64,000 bases of DNA from Chitinophagaceae bacterium (GTDB lineage Bacteria; Bacteroidota; Bacteroidia; Chitinophagales; Chitinophagaceae), in assembly GCA_004322015.1 (NCBI GenBank), contig SCQT01000252.1, positions 1 to 64,000 on the forward strand, read 5' to 3'. Below the pieces are notes generated by a model that worked only from the letters and a program-made list of their open reading frames with translations, was not told the DNA's origin and did not search any database. Shown here one piece after another: positions 2,696-11,061 of this stretch; position 1 is the stretch's first letter; every line of letters begins with the position of its first letter. Position numbers and translations under genes: made by a program.

Positions 2696-3166
2696 TCAGG
2701 AAAGTAATTTTTGTCGAAGGAGGAATTCCAGCTTGTGGTTGACGTCCATTAATTTATCAGTCAGCTCGGTGTTTTCTTTTCTCAGGTGATATAATTCGTA
2801 AGCTTTCTCAATGTTTTCTTTGAGATCATTTTCGTCCCAGGGCTTGGAGAAATATTTATAAACTTGTCCTTTATTGATCGCATCTATCACGGCGTTAATA
2901 TCTGCATAACCGGTGAGCAGCATGCGGATCGGCTCGGGATGTAATTCGAGGATGGAGGCGAAAAAATCAATACCTGTCATGTCAGGCATGCGTTGATCCG
3001 AGATAATTATATGTATTTCGTTCTCGTCTAAGATCTTCTTCGCTTCAGCCACGGAGTCTGTGGTAAAGACCCGGTAAATGCGCCGGAAATTAGCTTTAAA
3101 TGCAGCCAGGTTATTGACTTCATCATCAATATATAAAACGTTGATTTTAACCTCGCTATCACTCAT
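2696..3166 (-). CDS. Response regulator, receiver domain only with coiled-coil tail
   Basis: A 156-aa protein with a CheY-like receiver over residues 8-125: acidic pair in YIDDEVNN, phospho-acceptor Asp57 in ISDQRMPD, the Thr of LLTGYAD, and the Lys of SKPWDEND. The last 30 residues (LRKENTELTDKLMDVNHKL) are predicted coiled coil, with no DNA-binding output domain. The receiver closely resembles the one at 7415 (shared YIDDEVNNL.AFKANFRR and KPWD), so the two proteins are paralogs and probably part of one relay. It is divergent from the ThiF/GNAT/kinase genes and has its own good promoter. Output is likely protein-protein contact. Confidence 0.9.
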   Translation of the reverse strand: MSDSEVKINVLYIDDEVNNLAAFKANFRRIYRVFTTDSVAEAKKILDENEIHIIISDQRMPDMTGIDFFASILELHPEPIRMLLTGYADINAVIDAINKGQVYKYFSKPWDENDLKENIEKAYELYHLRKENTELTDKLMDVNHKLEFLLRQKLLS

Positions 3167-3216
3167 ATACCTATATTGATCAAGCTTGTGAATGCATCCT
3201 GAATGTACGTATTATA

Positions 3217-3249
3217 CAAATGTACCATAGAATTTTACTATTCCCCAAA
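3217..3249 (-). promoter_or_regulatory. Bacteroidota-type promoter for the response regulator at 2696-3166
   Basis: On the minus strand TTTG (3249-3246) is followed after 21 nt by TACATTTG (3224-3217). This matches the TTTG / TAnnTTTG consensus of the Bacteroidota primary sigma factor at the expected spacing. It lies about 50 nt upstream of the start codon at 3166. Confidence 0.7.
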
Positions 3250-3377
3250 AAAAATTGAATAAAATGTACCACACCTCGAAAAATGTTCTAAATTAGTGGA
3301 AAAATAGGGGAAAAAAGCAGGTCTGGAGCCAACCTCAACAGAGATTATCGGACATTATCAAAAAACAGTTAATTATA

Positions 3378-4436
3378 ATGATACAACCGTACGCGTACAG
3401 GATTTCCTCGCCTCATGATGCTGACTCGTTTCACAATTTATTGAAGGACAAGCCGTATATTCAGGTTTTTGACCGGATATGGCAACAATTGGCGGAATTA
3501 ATAAAAATTAATCATCCGGGTGAGAAATTTTCGGAGAGCGGCCTAAAAGAAGCCGTGAAGGATCATTTGGACGGCAGTGACATGCGGGATTACGGAGTAT
3601 GGGTGTACTACCCCTGGAATGAAAAAATGGTGCATCTGTTAGATGAAGCAGAGTTTTCCGCGCTGCGGACAAACAGGAATCTGTACAAAATCACCCCGGA
3701 GGAAAGGGCAGTTTTATCCACCAGAAAAATAGGCGTTATCGGATTGTCCGTGGGGCAGTCAGTAGCCCTGATATTAGCTATGGAACGGACTTTTGGAGAA
3801 TTACGCATAGCCGATTTTGATACGCTGGATCTGAGTAATATGAACCGGATCAGGACAGGTGTACACAATCTCGGACTTCCTAAAACCGAGATCGTGGCGC
3901 GCGAAATAGCCGAAATAGATCCCTTTTTGAAAGTGACCTGCTTTCCCGAAGGAATTACCGGCGATAATATAGATGATTTTTTGCAGGGGTCCGGCAACCT
4001 GGACATGTTGATAGATGAATGTGACAGCTTACCTGTAAAAATACTTTGCCGGCGCAAGGCGCGCGCCTTGCAAATCCCCGTATTGATGGATACCAGCGAC
4101 CGGGGAATGATAGATATTGAACGGTTTGATGAAGAGCCTGAGCGCCCTTTATTTCATGGCATAATCCCCGAAGAGGAGTTTGATGAAAAAAACTTGCAGA
4201 ATCCTGATTTACGGGTACATTTGTCGCTGCAAATTGCAGGCGCAGCCACTATATCTGAAAGAATGAAGCGGTCACTCCCCCAAATCGGTAAAACTATTTC
4301 CACCTGGCCTCAACTGGCTTCCGCTGTATCACTGGGCGGGGCGGCAGTGGCTGAAATCAGCAGAAAGATTTTATCGGGAGAAAAGGTGCCATCGGGAAGA
4401 TATTACATAGATGTGGATGAAATAGTTAAACGTTAG
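3378..4436 (+). CDS. ThiF-family E1-like adenylating protein
   Basis: A 352-aa protein with an E1-like ThiF fold from about residue 115: nucleotide-binding loop GVIGLSVGQSVA (in place of the common GxGGxGS), then ADFDTLDLSNMNRIR, the D..D.sN.nR motif that contacts ATP, and LIDECDSLPVK. The N-terminal ~110 residues are an extra domain with no clear match (GVWVYYPW). No CxxC zinc pair and no obvious catalytic Cys of ubiquitin-type E1s are seen. ThiF relatives adenylate the carboxyl end of a small protein or peptide; here no carrier protein is encoded nearby. The gene is 11 nt upstream of the GNAT-like gene and heads an apparent operon with a sensor kinase. Substrate unknown; it resembles Rv1355c-type ThiF proteins. 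Confidence 0.8.
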   Translation: MIQPYAYRISSPHDADSFHNLLKDKPYIQVFDRIWQQLAELIKINHPGEKFSESGLKEAVKDHLDGSDMRDYGVWVYYPWNEKMVHLLDEAEFSALRTNRNLYKITPEERAVLSTRKIGVIGLSVGQSVALILAMERTFGELRIADFDTLDLSNMNRIRTGVHNLGLPKTEIVAREIAEIDPFLKVTCFPEGITGDNIDDFLQGSGNLDMLIDECDSLPVKILCRRKARALQIPVLMDTSDRGMIDIERFDEEPERPLFHGIIPEEEFDEKNLQNPDLRVHLSLQIAGAATISERMKRSLPQIGKTISTWPQLASAVSLGGAAVAEISRKILSGEKVPSGRYYIDVDEIVKR

Positions 4437-4447
4437 CTCTTAAGAAT

Positions 4448-5203
4448 ATGGAGAATCTTCTGAAGCGGGTAAATGTAAGAGTATTCAGGGCGGATAAAAA
4501 CAGGGAAGATTGTCGGCGTTTTGTGGAAGGTCACCATAAGGTATTGGAGTCCTATGGGGTTACTCAGGTGACGTCGGCTAACGTGGAATGGATGAACGAA
4601 CCATACAGCTATGTTATTCTGGTGGAAGATGCAGAGGAATACCGGGCGCTTGGAGGTGCGCGACTGCAAATGTATAGCGGAACTATTCCGCTCCCTATAG
4701 AAACTGCAGTTAGTAAATTGGATGAACGAATTTATGACGTCACTCGTCAGAAAGCATTAAATCGTACGGGTGAGTTCTGTGGGGCATGGAACTCCAAGGA
4801 AGTGGCCGGTTACGGAATCGGAAGCATTATTCTCGGCAGGGTTTGCGTAAGCATCGCCGAAAGATTAAAAATGGGGTCTTTGTTTGCATTGGCTTCTCCT
4901 GCCAGTTTAAAATTATGTCAAGGGGTAGGATTTCAGGTGATCAGGACTTTAGGAATAAACGGAATTTTTTATTACCCTAAAGAAGATCTGATTGCAACTG
5001 CTCTTCTTATTGATAACTTATCGGAATTACCGGGAGCAAAGGAAGAGGAAAGAGAAAAAATCATAAACTTTAGAAGAAATCCTGTGCAAACAATGTGCGA
5101 AACAGGATTAAGAGGAACAGTGGAAGCAAATTATAATTTAATTATTTCAGACGAGGATATTATCAGATTGCCAACGGAATCTTTACAAGTGAGTGATGTA
5201 TGA
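4448..5203 (+). CDS. GNAT-fold acyltransferase, FeeM/LuxI-like N-acyl synthase candidate
   Basis: A 251-aa protein. The region of residues 50-180 reads like a GNAT-fold N-acyl transferase of the autoinducer-synthase/FeeM group: GGARLQ (69-74), GEFCGAW followed by GYGIG (108-125), ALASPASLKL..VGF (148-162) and FYYPKED (174-180). The order RL..., E...W, then a long helix and a SP..L....GF strand is what these acyl-amino-acid or acyl-homoserine-lactone synthases show. I infer an acyl transfer to an amine; donor and acceptor are unknown. It sits between the ThiF gene (11 nt gap) and the sensor kinase (4-nt ATGA overlap), so translation is probably coupled. A plain GNAT acetyltransferase remains possible. 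Confidence 0.65.
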   Translation: MENLLKRVNVRVFRADKNREDCRRFVEGHHKVLESYGVTQVTSANVEWMNEPYSYVILVEDAEEYRALGGARLQMYSGTIPLPIETAVSKLDERIYDVTRQKALNRTGEFCGAWNSKEVAGYGIGSIILGRVCVSIAERLKMGSLFALASPASLKLCQGVGFQVIRTLGINGIFYYPKEDLIATALLIDNLSELPGAKEEEREKIINFRRNPVQTMCETGLRGTVEANYNLIISDEDIIRLPTESLQVSDV

Positions 5204-7395
5204 AATTTTTTTTTCTGATACAATTATTGTTGCTACCCTTACTGGCTTTTTCGTCGAGTGATACTACCTATATAACTAATAAGAGAAGTGTTCTGCTGAG
5301 AGGTAGTGAGATTACAGTTTTCAAGGATCGCACCGGTAGGCTCTCTTTTAATAAGATCGAAACAATAGATGCTTTTTCTACTGCCTCCCGGTCTATACCT
5401 AATTTGGGAATATCCAAAGGATCTGTTTGGATAAAATTTACTCTGTATAATGAATCGAATGATGACCATCTTTTGATCAACCTCAAAAAGCCTAATCTTA
5501 ATTATGTAAGACTATATTATCCTATTGACAACCGCGGAAATTATTCTTACCTTGATGCAGGGAATTTAGCATCTCCTTCGATGCATGAATTGAATGATCC
5601 CAATAATATTTTTTATGTGCCAATTGCACCTTACTCCTCGGCCACTATTTATATGCGTGTTCAAAGTATAGGCCAAATAGTTTTACCGGTGATAGTAGGA
5701 ACCGGTGATAGTATTATCGAGGATATTAATGTGGACAGACTGGTTTTCGGTATTTATATTGGGATCATTCTCATCATGCTTTTTTATAATTTCTTCATCT
5801 ATTTTACCGTTCGCGACAAGACCTATTTATATTATATTGCATATATCTTCTTCATCGGGTTTGCACAATTTATTTTGGAGGGTTATGGATACCAACTCTT
5901 ATGGGGTGGGATGACCTATATCACATTGCAAAGTGTCAATTGGTCCGGAGCGCTATCAGGAATCGCTACCGCTGTATTTCTTCGTGTCTTTCTGCAAACC
6001 AAAAAACAAATGCCCCTTTTTGATAAAGTACTAATAGGCTTTATTCTATTATATGTCGCGACCCTGCTTCTTACACTATTTGGATTGTATAATACGAGCT
6101 ATACTTTAATTGATATCATTGCTTTCGTAGGGAGTTTTGCTTTCTTAGGAGCCGGAATCAAATTATCGTTCGATCGTTTCAGACCTGCAAAATTTTTCAT
6201 GATAGCCTGGTCCTTTTTTATAGCCAGCATCATTTTATATGTAATTAAAGATTTCGGTGTAATTCCCTATAACTTCTTTACCAATAATATTCTTTTGATC
6301 GGATCTTCTATAGAGATCGCATTGCTTTCTTTTGCATTGGCAGATACCATCAATCAGTATAAAAAAGAAAAAGAGAGTTCACAAGTCCAGGCCATTAAAG
6401 CTTTGAAGGAAAAGGAGGAATTTGCGAGCCAGCAAAATGTGATCCTCGAAAAGAAGGTAAATGAACGGACGGATCAGTTGCGACAAACCAATAATAATCT
6501 TGAATTGACGCTAAGGCAACTGCAGGAGAGCCAGAGCCAGTTGGTGGACGCCGAAAAGATGGCTTCCTTAGGTCAGCTCACCGCAGGCATTGCTCATGAG
6601 ATCAACAATCCTATCAATTTTGTTAAGTCTAATGTGAAGCCGCTTCAAATGGATATTGATGACATCAAGGATCTGATCAAACGATATGAAGAGGTACATG
6701 CGGGTAATTTTGACGAAAAGATCCGGGAGATCAATGCATTCAGAGAAGAAATTGACTTTGAGTATGTCATGGAAGAAATCAGAGCGCTGCTTTCGGGAAT
6801 CGAAGACGGAGCTACCAGGACAGCAGAGATCGTTAAAGGTTTGCGCAATTTCAGCAGATTAGATGAAAGCGACCTCAAAGAAGCTGATCTCCAAAATGGC
6901 CTGGACACCACTTTAATGCTCTTAAATCATACTATTCCGAAGAACTTTTCAGTGATTAAAAATTATCAGAATATCCCGAAAATCGAATGTTATCCCGGTA
7001 AACTGAACCAGGTATTTATGAATATTCTCACTAATTCCATTCAGGCGCTCATATCCGATGATGAAGGGAAAGAGAAAAAGATCATCCTTACTACAGAAAG
7101 GCTGAATGAAAATGTGACCATCCGTATTGCAGATACGGGGCCGGGTATTCCGAAAGAGGTGCAGGACAAAATATTTGAACCTTTTTTCACTACTAAAGAG
7201 GTAGGAGAGGGGACGGGATTGGGACTTTCCATTGTGTACAGCATCATTGAGAAGCATCATGGAAAAATCACTGTTCATTCTGAAGAGAAACAGGGAACAG
7301 AATTTGTTATAACTTTACCTTTGCAACAAAGCGAATTTTTGAAGACAAACGCTGCGGCTGCCACATCAATTTCAGATGAATCATTGAACCGTTAA
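5200..7395 (+). CDS. Sensor histidine kinase with 7TMR-DISM sensor
   Basis: A 731-aa membrane kinase. Residues 1-20 are a signal peptide. Residues ~25-160 form a periplasmic 7TMR-DISMED2-type beta domain ([17 protein letters not shown] is typical). Seven transmembrane helices follow at ~180-385, then a coiled coil (~390-455). The HisKA H-box has phospho-acceptor His466 in GIAHEINNP. The ATPase domain has the N-box [11 protein letters not shown]1 DTGPGIP and G2 [16 protein letters not shown]2 domains are jelly-roll folds thought to bind carbohydrates or other small ligands. The start codon overlaps the GNAT-like gene by 4 nt, which ties the sensor to the enzyme pair. No receiver is fused; the two downstream receiver proteins are the likely partners. 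Confidence 0.93.
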
Positions 7396-7414
7396 TCTAA
7401 ATCTTCCAAATACT

Positions 7415-8509
7415 ATGGCTGAGGAGAAGATTCGTATCTTATACATAGATGACGAAGTGAATAATTTGCATGCATTTAAAGCCAACTTCAGGCGCAAATA
7501 TGAGATTTATACAGCCTCGAATACTTTAGAAGCGAGGAAAACGCTGCAAAGCATTCCTCTCCACATCATTATTGCAGATCAGCGGATGCCCGGCGCCACA
7601 GGAGTGGAATTCTTTAATTCGATCAAAGAAAACTATCCGGATCCCATACGTATTTTACTGACGGGGTTTACTGATGCGGAGGCTTTGGTGGACGCCATCA
7701 ACAAAGGCCAGATTTACCGGTTTATCCGCAAACCCTGGGATGATTTTGATCTGCAAAATACCATCAGCAATGCTTACGAAATATTTAATACCAGGAAAGA
7801 GCTGGACAGAAAGATGGACGAACTGGAGAAAGCGAATGACGAATTGAGTCGTTTTATTTACAGCGCCTCCCATGATCTCCGTTCTCCCCTGATGTCTGTC
7901 CTGGGCATTATTAACCTTTCCAAGTTAGATCATTCCATTACAGACCCCAATGGGTATGTTGCCATGATAGAAACCAGCGTCCTGAAGCTCGACAGGTTTG
8001 TGCAAAAGATCATTGAATATTATAAGAACACCCGGATGCAGGTAGAATATGAGCCTATTGATTTTAAAGTGCTGATCCAGGAAAGCGTGGAATCAGCCAA
8101 ACTTCAGAACAGCGCCATCCATTTTGAGACTGATGTGGAACAAAATACTGATTTTTACGGGGATGCATTCCGGATCAACCTGGTATTAAATAACCTGATC
8201 TCCAATGCAATGAAATATCAGAAGCCGGAAAGCGAGCATCAGATGGTAAAGCTTAAAGTGGTTGTTAATTCTTATAAGGCGGTGATACACATTGAAGATA
8301 ACGGTATAGGGATTTTAAGTGAACACCTGAATAACGTGTTCAAGATGTTTTTTCGTTCCAGGACTAACAATATGCCGGGAAGCGGTATCGGATTATACAT
8401 AGTAAAAGAAGCCCTGAACCGTATCGGAGGGGATATTTCAGTCAACTCCATCTTTGAAAAAGGAACCACTTTTGTCATTACAATACCCAGCCAACATGCC
8501 ACAAGATAG
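7415..8509 (+). CDS. Receiver-histidine kinase hybrid (cytoplasmic)
   Basis: A 364-aa soluble protein with reversed hybrid order: receiver at residues 6-125 (IDDEVNN, Asp55 in IADQRMPG, LLTGFTD, RKPWDD), a short coiled coil, HisKA with His153 in SASHDLRSP, and a HATPase domain (NNLISNAMKY, EDNGIGI, GSGIGLYIV). It starts 19 nt after the sensor kinase. Its receiver is very close to that of the protein at 2696-3166. A plausible flow is sensor kinase to this receiver, with its own kinase domain then charging the receiver at 8496. The partner order is inference. Confidence 0.92.
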   Translation: MAEEKIRILYIDDEVNNLHAFKANFRRKYEIYTASNTLEARKTLQSIPLHIIIADQRMPGATGVEFFNSIKENYPDPIRILLTGFTDAEALVDAINKGQIYRFIRKPWDDFDLQNTISNAYEIFNTRKELDRKMDELEKANDELSRFIYSASHDLRSPLMSVLGIINLSKLDHSITDPNGYVAMIETSVLKLDRFVQKIIEYYKNTRMQVEYEPIDFKVLIQESVESAKLQNSAIHFETDVEQNTDFYGDAFRINLVLNNLISNAMKYQKPESEHQMVKLKVVVNSYKAVIHIEDNGIGILSEHLNNVFKMFFRSRTNNMPGSGIGLYIVKEALNRIGGDISVNSIFEKGTTFVITIPSQHATR

Positions 8510-8918
8510 CCAAAAGCTTTTTTTTATCCTGGTGGACGATAATGATATTGATTTGTTTTTCCATGAAAAGCTGCTCAGGATCAAAAAAATAGCCGATCAT
8601 ATCACTCCTTTTTTAAGAGCTGCTGACGCCCTGGATTACCTGGAGCGTTTTCAGGATCATCCGGAGGAGTACCGGGAAACGGTGATATTGCTGGATATTC
8701 AGATGCCGCAGATAGACGGATTCGGATTTTTAGAGGAATTTGAAAAAATGCCTGAGGAGGTGCTGTCGAAGACCCGGATCTTTTTGGTTTCTTCTTCTCT
8801 GGATCATGGTGATTTGAGTCGCGGTCATGCACATCATTTGGTAAGCGGTATTTTGAAAAAGCCGCTGAATGCCGATGAACTGATCAAAGCGCTTGAAAAT
8901 ACGGCGGCGGGAGGATAG
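8496..8918 (+). CDS. Single-domain response regulator
   Basis: A 140-aa receiver of the Rcp1/CheY-like branch common next to phytochrome-type kinases: FILVDDNDIDLFFHEKLL, phospho-acceptor Asp67 in LLDIQMPQIDG, SSS in place of the Thr, and the conserved Lys in LKKPLNADEL. An in-frame ORF extends upstream to 8454, but the ATG at 8496 matches the family N-terminus and overlaps the previous gene by only 14 nt, which suggests translational coupling. There is no output domain. It is the last gene of the signalling operon. Confidence 0.88.
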   Translation: MPQDSQKLFFILVDDNDIDLFFHEKLLRIKKIADHITPFLRAADALDYLERFQDHPEEYRETVILLDIQMPQIDGFGFLEEFEKMPEEVLSKTRIFLVSSSLDHGDLSRGHAHHLVSGILKKPLNADELIKALENTAAGG

Positions 8919-9073: not shown

Positions 9074-11061
9074 ATGACTGAGCAAACACCTGCTAAAGCC
9101 TCCGTCACTAAGATAACTCAAAAGCCGTTTATTTCCGGAGACATGTCGCTGCCTGAAATAACGGTGAAAGCCATTATTTTAGGGATTGTACTGGCGGTGA
9201 TCATGGCAGGGGCCAATGCTTATTTAGGGCTTTTTGCGGGCATGACCGTATCTGCTTCCATTCCTGCAGCAGTGATCTCCATGGGCGTTTTAAAATTATT
9301 CCGCCGGTCGAATATCCTGGAAAATAATATTGTACAAACCTGCGCTTCTGCCGGTGAGGCTTTGGCGGCAGGTGTTATTTTTACATTGCCTGCCTTGATC
9401 ATGTTGGGTACCTGGGCGCAGTTTGATTATTGGCAGACGGCACTGATAGCCGGTTTTGGCGGTATATTGGGAGTATTATTCACCGTGCCTTTGCGCCGTG
9501 CGCTGATCATTGAACAACCGCTGCAGTTCCCCGAAGGGATCGCGTGTGCCGAAGTGCTGAAGACGGGAGATAAGGGAGGGGAAGGGATCAGGTATGTAGG
9601 CTGGGCTGCGTTGTTTGCCATGGTATTCAAATTTGCCCAAACCGGATTACGCTGGATCGCCGGGACCGCGGAAGGGGCACATTATTTATTCGGGCGGAAA
9701 ATCGTTGCTTACGTCAGCTCTAATCTTTCGCCTGCATTGATAGGAGTGGGATATATTGTAGGATTGAACATCGCTGTGTTGGTATTTGCCGGCGGCGTCA
9801 TGAACTGGTGGATCGCTATTCCTATTATTACGGCCATGCATGGAGGCGCTCCTGCAGGGGTTAGTGCGGCGGATTATGCCAATCAGATCTGGTCCGGACA
9901 AACGCGTTTTATCGGGGTGGGCGCCATGGTCATCGGCGGATTATGGGCTTTGGTAAAAATGCGTAACAGTGTCTTTGTGGGTATCAAATCGGGGTTGGCA
10001 GCGTATAAAGAGAAAAAGCGACATGGTAACTATAACCGTCTGGAGCGCGATATGCCGATGCAGTGGGTGATCATCATAGTGATTGCTTCCATTATTCCCT
10101 TATTTTTTCTTTATCATTTTCTGATCGGAGAGATCAGCATGAGCATTTCCATGGCAGTTATTATGGTAATTGCAGGATTTTTATTCTCCGCCGTTTCCGG
10201 ATATATGACCGGATTAGTCGGTTCATCCAATAATCCGGTATCGGGTGTTACCATTGCCACTATTTTGTTTGCTTCGGTATTGTTGCTGGTGCTTTTCGGA
10301 GGGGGGGCAGTGAAAAGGGCGCTGCAGCGGCTATCCTTATCGGCGGCGTGGTGGCCTGTGCGGTGGCGATAGCAGGAGATAATTTACATGATTTGAAAAC
10401 GGGCACCCTTGTAGGCGCTACCCCCTGGAAACAACAGGTCATGCTGATTATCGGCACCATTGTTTCTGCTTTTGTAATGGCGCCTGTGTTGAATTTATTA
10501 TTGAAAGCGTACGGCATAGGGCCTGCTACTGCCGCGCACCCAGATTCTCTAACCGCACCACAGGCCACTTTAATGGCGGCAGTTTCCAGGGGAGTATTCC
10601 ATGGCGGCCTGCCCTGGGGAATGATCATCATCGGGATGGTAGCTGCGGTCCTGATCATTATTTTGGATGTCTGGTTAGAAAAAAAAGGATCCTCTTTCCG
10701 GGTTCCAGTGCTGGCGGTGGCTATTGGTATCTATCTGCCGTTTGAGTTAGGTGTTCCTATTTTTGCCGGCGGCATTATTTCTGCATTGGTAAAAAAGAAA
10801 TTGGGCAGGCAGGAGAAAGAGTATGGTCACGAGAAAATGGCAGTGATCGAACAGCGGGGTATGCTGATATCTTCCGGGCTGATCACCGGCGAAGCTTTAG
10901 TGGGTATTTTGATGGCTATCCCTATTGTGATATCCGGCAAGGCGGATGTACTGGCGTTCTCAGGAGTAAAAGATCTCGAGATCCCGGGTATCATTATTTT
11001 AATAGGATTGCTGTACGCCGTTTATAAAATAAGCGCTCCAGATCTTAAAGGAAAAAACTGA
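9074..11061 (+). pseudogene. OPT-family oligopeptide/siderophore transporter, broken by a frameshift in a G7 tract
   Basis: Two ORFs make one OPT-family transporter of about 662 residues. Frame 1 runs from ATG 9074 and keeps sense up to the seven Gs at 10301-10307; past them it yields unlike residues and stops at 10372. The other frame from the same tract reads SEKGAAAAILIGGVVA and then AGDNLHDLKTGTLVGATPW, a hallmark of OPT proteins, and ends at 11061. Adding one G (G8) joins the frames with a Gly-rich linker. Family features are many hydrophobic segments, GMTVSASIPAAVISMG, QTCASAGEALAAGV and FPEGIACAEVLKTG. Known members import small peptides or metal chelates. Whether this is a real mutation, a slippage or phase-variation site, or a read error cannot be told from one sequence. 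Confidence 0.85.

Follow-up and report, generated by a model that had tools for sequence, protein, structure and literature searches.

The closest described relatives of the system analyzed here are the oxazolone pathways TrzAS, TyzACB, and OxzAB, in which an FeeM-like N-acyltransferase stands beside a ThiF cyclase. TrzA acylates tryptophan, TrzS cyclizes and desaturates the product to an N-acyl tryptazolone, and TyzACB produces tyrazolones (PMC12856293, PMC10404671). The physiological role of oxazolones has been called a major unresolved question, and it has been remarked that they resemble signal molecules (PMC12856293). Here we analyze a block of six genes at positions 2696 to 8918 of a 64,000-nucleotide (nt) stretch from a Chitinophagaceae bacterium (GCA_004322015.1, contig SCQT01000252.1, positions 1 to 64,000, forward strand; this whole stretch is hereafter the window). 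The block joins a ThiF protein and a GNAT-type acyltransferase to a 7TMR-DISM sensor histidine kinase and a phosphorelay. As in the oxazolone pathways, the acyltransferase is FeeM-like and the cyclase belongs to the same subfamily, with a desaturase fused to it in 43 of 76 related loci. The block differs from these pathways in that ThiF comes without a desaturase in the window and 21 other loci, and in that a sensor kinase and relay are attached in Bacteroidota; lacking the desaturase, the window block is not a full OxzB/TrzS-type oxazolone synthase. In the accessible text, the words “kinase” and “two-component” are absent from PMC12856293 and “kinase” is absent from PMC10404671, and a search of the open-licence literature, with subscription papers outside its reach, found no description of this block. 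According to our analysis, the block is a conserved module whose constant pair is the acyltransferase and the kinase, and we put at roughly 0.6 the probability that it is a circuit sensing its own signal, a carboxyl-capped N-acyl amino acid (an oxazolone or a methyl ester).

The window ThiF matches the N-terminal half of NF005901, the Rv1355c family (model positions 13 to 340 of 722), with a score that does not reach the curated cut-off of 476 bits; the C-terminal nitroreductase half is absent. It is 42% identical over 274 amino acids to a Nocardia farcinica protein, TrzS-type by homology and gene order, whose gene, read from the ATG at L127:4669 (L and G numbers are our handles for loci and genomes), overlaps an upstream TrzA-like gene, labeled on the same grounds, by 4 nt. 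The closest named relative in the genome scan is from Chitinophagaceae bacterium DXS (61%). Residues that we take to serve adenylation (GxSVG, D146, D148, S153, N154, N156, R157, K169, and D216) are invariant in all 10 rows of our ThiF alignment (A1), the window included. D216 is presumed to be the equivalent of D217 of TrzS, the latter taken from PMC12856293. The E1-like adenylating partner proposed in the first-pass annotation is supported. No flavin-dependent oxidase/nitroreductase (desaturase) domain is fused or adjacent in the window block, and a 12-row desaturase profile, which matched strongly in the controls G111 and G300, found nothing in the window's genome, G007, or G126, although the window's assembly (97% complete, 300 contigs) may conceal a missed gene. 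Since no desaturase was found, the window's pathway should end with a saturated oxazolone (azlactone) or the ring-opened version of it. A cyclized, saturated compound has been reported for TrzS under limited oxygen or with a mutated oxidase (PMC12856293).

The acyltransferase is harder to place by sequence. The window GNAT has no Pfam match even at an E value of 10, NCBIfam and PDB sequence searches returned chance-level rows only, and a weak Acetyltransf_1 match (E value, 0.0021) appears in 1 of 11 relatives. Its AlphaFold2 model (predicted local distance difference test score, 92.7) finds FeeM as its best Foldseek match (2g0b; E value, 2.2e-7) and also matches the N-acyl homoserine lactone (AHL) synthases MesI, BjaI, EsaI, and LasI. 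With VIA, FeeM (Z score, 16.7 over 178 residues) is tied with the GNAT 1xeb (16.1 over 145 residues), and ElaA scores 15.7; given that tie, the fold alone leaves the substrate unfixed. The predicted structure thus agrees with the FeeM/LuxI-like fold that the first-pass annotation had claimed, and FeeM and BjaI are also the closest structures reported for TyzA (PMC10404671). A profile of 63 GNAT relatives aligned co-linearly with two actinobacterial TrzA-like proteins in hhalign (probability, 80%; E value, 1.4e-5; 188 columns). The single-sequence hhalign comparison with one Rhodococcus acyltransferase was weak (E value, 0.015; probability, 3%), BLAST of the window GNAT gave no match in the plasmid collection, five actinobacterial loci, or Sorangium, and a Streptomyces plasmid GNAT adjoining a ThiF did not align. 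One locus (L176:7025-8475, genome G628) has tandem acyltransferases, two copies in one block, which possibly make two acyl-amino acids.

Both enzyme folds include protein-modifying members, with Nat enzymes among the structural matches of the GNAT, so the pair could instead act on a protein, or on the kinase itself, in which case the GNAT would acylate an N terminus and ThiF would serve as an E1. Yet the best structural match is FeeM, which acylates a free amino acid (other GNATs being tied with it by Z score), the ThiF subfamily is that of TrzS, and no ubiquitin-like or E2-like domain occurs among the Pfam matches of the window block. We therefore hold protein modification to be very improbable.

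Searches from each of the three genes recovered the same association. Anchored on ThiF, 11 of 296 sampled genomes of the phylum have the protein (147 to 737 bits, against 63 bits at most for other ThiF rows; one of the 11 is a fragment at a contig edge), and relatives of the GNAT and the 7TMR-DISM kinase adjoin it in all 11. Among named genomes we took the 80 ThiF loci nearest to the window's ThiF, from at least 585; a sensor kinase was called as a nearby gene in 69 of these, five of the 11 misses being contig ends (a tblastn count of 71 includes two matches, L079 and L101, to a kinase core and not to the sensor). The acyltransferase-anchored search used a profile (A3) trained on GNATs adjoining ThiF, which cannot detect more distant GNATs. 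It found the gene in 76 of the 395 genomes from the window's class (the weak outlier G475 is retained), and all 76 loci were read. The sensor profile (A5) matches downstream of the GNAT, on the same strand and within 4 kb, in 74 of them, with a lowest score of 293 bits; A3 itself had been built with 14 of the 76 GNATs, and A5 with 24 of the 74 kinases. In one of the two misses the GNAT lies at a contig end (L194); the other (L193) is described below. Anchored on the kinase, the 36 best sensor-profile hits in 198 genomes (at least 313 bits; 21 were profile rows, and 15 were not) fall in exactly the 36 acyltransferase genomes, and 50 further 7TMR-DISM hits, at 178 to 306 bits, are located elsewhere. 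The association goes beyond chance. The first-pass annotation had named a lack of conserved linkage in other genomes as grounds for refutation; these surveys did not refute it. The block is carried by Chitinophaga, Pedobacter, and Mucilaginibacter strains.

Some loci show other arrangements of these gene families. In Saprospiraceae, the ThiF part and a stretch resembling the GNAT (37%) share a single 632-amino-acid frame (L055:6409-8307), apparently by fusion, and no sensor kinase is close. Two Dyadobacter loci (L084:7105-7890 and L101:7164-7922) are a kinase-free variant in which a different, weakly GNAT-like gene precedes ThiF. On a Rhodococcus plasmid (L123:2808-6956), genes for a GGDEF protein, a divergently encoded TrzA-like protein, and a member of the Rv1355c family are adjacent, echoing the cyclic di-GMP neighbors of trzAS, and on a Streptomyces plasmid (L125:4830-6628), a MerR regulator is followed by a desaturase-less ThiF that overlaps an unrelated GNAT.

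While the acyltransferase and the kinase stay, their partner changes. The slot held by ThiF in the window contains a ThiF-desaturase fusion in 43 of the 76 loci (two are cut by a contig end, leaving the desaturase alone visible), ThiF alone in 22 (including the window and L193), a class-I S-adenosylmethionine methyltransferase in seven, a PF00891 O-methyltransferase in one (L150), and an ICMT-family carboxyl methyltransferase in one (L181, same family as the window); it is unreadable in L194. Five of the seven class-I methyltransferases were identified by Pfam and the other two by motif, L155 also by near identity to L140. On the sensor tree, the passage from ThiF to methyltransferase needs three changes. 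The first-pass annotation had taken the ThiF-GNAT-kinase triplet as the unit; the GNAT-kinase pair is indeed constant, whereas ThiF is one member of an interchangeable set of tailoring enzymes. Carboxylates are the target of both ThiF, by adenylation, and ICMT, by methylation. Because unrelated folds acting on carboxylates fill one slot, we infer that the slot enzymes cap the carboxylate of an N-acyl amino acid.

The same constancy of acyltransferase and kinase would suit a different signal, a plain N-acyl amino acid read by the kinase, with ThiF, the desaturase, and the methyltransferases inactivating it, tuning its export, or recycling it. One locus (L189) has no tailoring gene, and actinobacterial supernatants are enriched in acyl-tryptophans, not tryptazolones (PMC12856293), as an uncapped signal would have it. 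Yet a tailoring gene is present in 74 of the 75 loci with a readable slot, and modification therefore appears to be selected; we consider an uncapped signal distinctly improbable.

The sensor kinase carries 7TMR-DISM_7TM (PF07695; 166 bits), DISMED2 (PF07696; 80 bits), and HisKA and HATPase domains over their cut-offs, and in structure comparison its ectodomain resembles that of RetS (Z score, 15.3). Its start overlaps the preceding gene by 4 nt, the commonest distance across loci. Only two genes of the window's genome match PF07695 at an E value of 0.001. In our tree, one branch, with a Shimodaira-Hasegawa approximate likelihood ratio test (SH-aLRT) support of 98, separates the 46 module sensors tested from 17 other 7TMR-DISM kinases. 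These 17 were picked from the 50 other sensor-profile hits and do not strictly follow the score order, since a number of hits, fragments among them, were passed over; the trees are quick searches without bootstrap, in which the joining of L033 and L181 was flagged as a long-branch effect. At strict thresholds, three positions separate the module sensors from other 7TMR-DISM proteins, and from these three alone no ligand pocket could be proposed. The resemblance of the 7TM part to G protein-coupled receptors (GPCRs), the adiponectin receptor, and Wntless reflects a common helical arrangement only and was not used.

Downstream of the sensor, the relay genes recall another described system. In the Ralstonia phcBSRQ operon, PhcR is a REC plus a kinase domain and PhcQ is a single REC, both without a DNA-binding domain (PMC8578825). 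The window block resembles this operon, by order and spacing, in combining a synthase, a sensor kinase, a REC-kinase, and a single REC (PMC8578825, PMC6989110). It differs in that its synthase is an acyltransferase with a tailoring enzyme, not the methyltransferase PhcB, and in that its sensor is of the 7TMR-DISM type. Pfam found no methyltransferase in the window block, although one of some kind replaces ThiF in nine relatives; the block is not a phc system, and the comparison is one of layout. Within 6.5 kb of the GNAT, 75 of the 76 loci have a REC relative on one strand or the other, 65 on the same strand and 64 on the opposite one; full-length REC-kinase relatives lie on the same strand in 42 loci, and six longer REC proteins at other loci are REC-PAS-kinases. 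L053, L087, L150, and L187 each encode nearby a regulator of NarL type whose DNA-binding domain is of the LuxR family (GerE), which suggests the transcriptional output at those loci. A Rhizobium plasmid encodes a REC-kinase similar to the window's, and the operon around it is not comparable. The features of the block are listed in Table 1.

Table 1. Features of the block in the window
Feature	Positions	Strand	Evidence
Single-REC response regulator, divergent, with C-terminal tail	2696-3166	-	PF00072, 66.6 bits; DNA-binding domain not found (Pfam)
Divergent intergenic region, presumed promoters	3167-3377	.	Three AATGTAC copies (3202, 3219, 3263)
ThiF/E1-like cyclase, N-terminal half of the Rv1355c/TrzS family, without the desaturase half	3378-4436	+	PF00899, 64 bits; NF005901, 461.7 bits
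FeeM/AHL-synthase-fold N-acyltransferase (GNAT), TrzA-like	4448-5203	+	Predicted structure; hhalign
7TMR-DISM sensor histidine kinase: DISMED2 ectodomain, 7TM, HisKA, HATPase	5200-7395	+	Pfam
REC fused to soluble histidine kinase, PhcR-like layout	7415-8509	+	PF00072; HATPase_c; HisKA, 25.2 bits (cut-off, 26.9)
Single-REC response regulator, PhcQ-like layout	8496-8918	+	PF00072, 41.6 bits

The genes are tightly packed, with an 11-nt gap between ThiF and GNAT, a 4-nt overlap between GNAT and kinase, and a 19-nt gap between kinase and REC-kinase. The last REC gene overlaps the REC-kinase gene by 14 nt if it starts at the ATG at 8496, its longest open reading frame beginning at a TTG at 8454. The six genes and their spacings were placed correctly in the first-pass annotation. 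In the divergent region, the three AATGTAC copies lie within 68 bases (positions 3202 to 3269) upstream of the ThiF gene, and the whole window has 11 copies versus 6.3 expected. The triplet was dropped as a shared upstream operator, since 65 other divergent regions (seven of them of zero length by mechanically assigned starts) yielded one copy, in L141 only. Beyond the block, two overlapping frames (9074-10372 and 10348-11061) apparently belong to one transporter, which we take to be OPT-like, as if split by one frameshift, whether from sequencing error or from decay.

The block may well work like the phc or LuxI/LuxR systems. With AHL signaling of the LuxI/LuxR type it shares the AHL-synthase fold of its acyltransferase; it differs in having a membrane kinase and no LuxR-type cytoplasmic receptor (Pfam found neither a GerE nor an autoinducer-binding domain in the window's six proteins), and thus it is not a LuxI/LuxR system. 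The N-acyl alanine methyl esters of Roseovarius, which have been presented as AHL analogues, are likewise N-acyl amino acids with a capped carboxyl, but “histidine kinase” is absent from the accessible text and they are said to play no part in AHL-mediated signaling (PMC11580390). In a self-sensing circuit, the FeeM/TrzA-like acyltransferase would couple an acyl chain, from an acyl-coenzyme A or acyl-acyl carrier protein donor, to an amino acid, and ThiF would adenylate the carboxylate and close the ring to a 5(4H)-oxazolone, neutral, lipophilic, and AHL-like. This product would reach the envelope, where the 7TMR-DISM kinase encoded in the same operon would sense it and hand phosphate to the REC-kinase and the stand-alone REC proteins, in the manner of phcSRQ. 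The likely transcriptional output in some relatives would be a NarL-type regulator encoded near the relay. Gene anatomy, homology to oxazolone enzymes, the predicted fold, the linkage, and the swap of tailoring enzymes are the observations behind this reading; from them come, by inference, co-transcription, substrate, product, export, kinase ligand, direction of phosphate flow, and outputs.

Several results weigh against a capped signal read by the kinase. Six ThiF loci with enough flanking sequence have no kinase (Saprospiraceae L055, Sorangium L072, Dyadobacter L074, L084, and L101, and Blastocatellia L080), and two of these keep a GNAT relative (L055, 37%; L074, 29%). L193, whose GNAT is a weak outlier (68.6 bits), has GNAT and ThiF without the kinase. 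The slot is empty in 1 of 76 loci (L189), and the two class-I methyltransferases that were scanned resemble, below cut-off, NCBIfam models of ArsM and UbiE type rather than known carboxyl methyltransferases. Gain or loss of the desaturase needs seven changes on the sensor tree; therefore, the finished ring is not what the sensor follows. In actinobacteria, it was the cells and not the medium that were enriched in tryptazolones (PMC12856293). Our acyltransferase comparison was with neighbors of TrzS-type genes.

Finally, linkage would be equally expected if the kinase merely regulated the pathway. In this main rival explanation, the kinase senses envelope state, a nutrient, or oxidative stress and times synthesis of a product that is a membrane lipid, antimicrobial, or protectant and not its ligand. 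Proteobacterial oxazolones are induced by antibiotics, the tyz locus is genetically linked to oxidative stress, and N-acyl tyrosines are antimicrobial (PMC12856293). Yet a Pfam scan found no DNA-binding domain among the six window proteins, the kinase accompanies the acyltransferase even where another enzyme, or none, takes the place of ThiF, and no kinase relative occurs within 4 to 8 kb beside ThiF in five actinobacterial plasmid loci and Sorangium. We regard regulation without self-sensing as somewhat unlikely.

Self-sensing of a carboxyl-capped product remains our preferred reading, and the signaling interpretation of the first-pass annotation is partly supported. That annotation had also raised the prospect of well-established unrelated roles for the two enzymes. 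Their relatives do have known chemistry, from N-acyl amino acid to oxazolone (PMC12856293, PMC10404671), with no established physiological role; the signaling idea is therefore sharpened. A broader proposal is that Bacteroidota use carboxyl-capped N-acyl amino acids as autoinducers read by a dedicated GPCR-like 7TM histidine kinase, mostly oxazolones, with methyl esters where methyltransferases replace ThiF and dialects arising by swap of the tailoring enzyme, so that signaling would be the missing role of oxazolones in the phylum. We advance this tentatively, at slightly less than even odds.

Because 74 of 76 Bacteroidota genomes have a sensor kinase neighboring the acyltransferase, a signaling role of oxazolones is directly testable in cultured environmental species. 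If it is true, Bacteroidota would have an acyl-amino-acid counterpart of AHL signaling, an orphan group of 7TMR-DISM proteins would gain a ligand, and the natural tailoring variants could locate the recognized part of the molecule. It would represent a new version of bacterial cell-to-cell communication and give a puzzling class of natural products a testable role.

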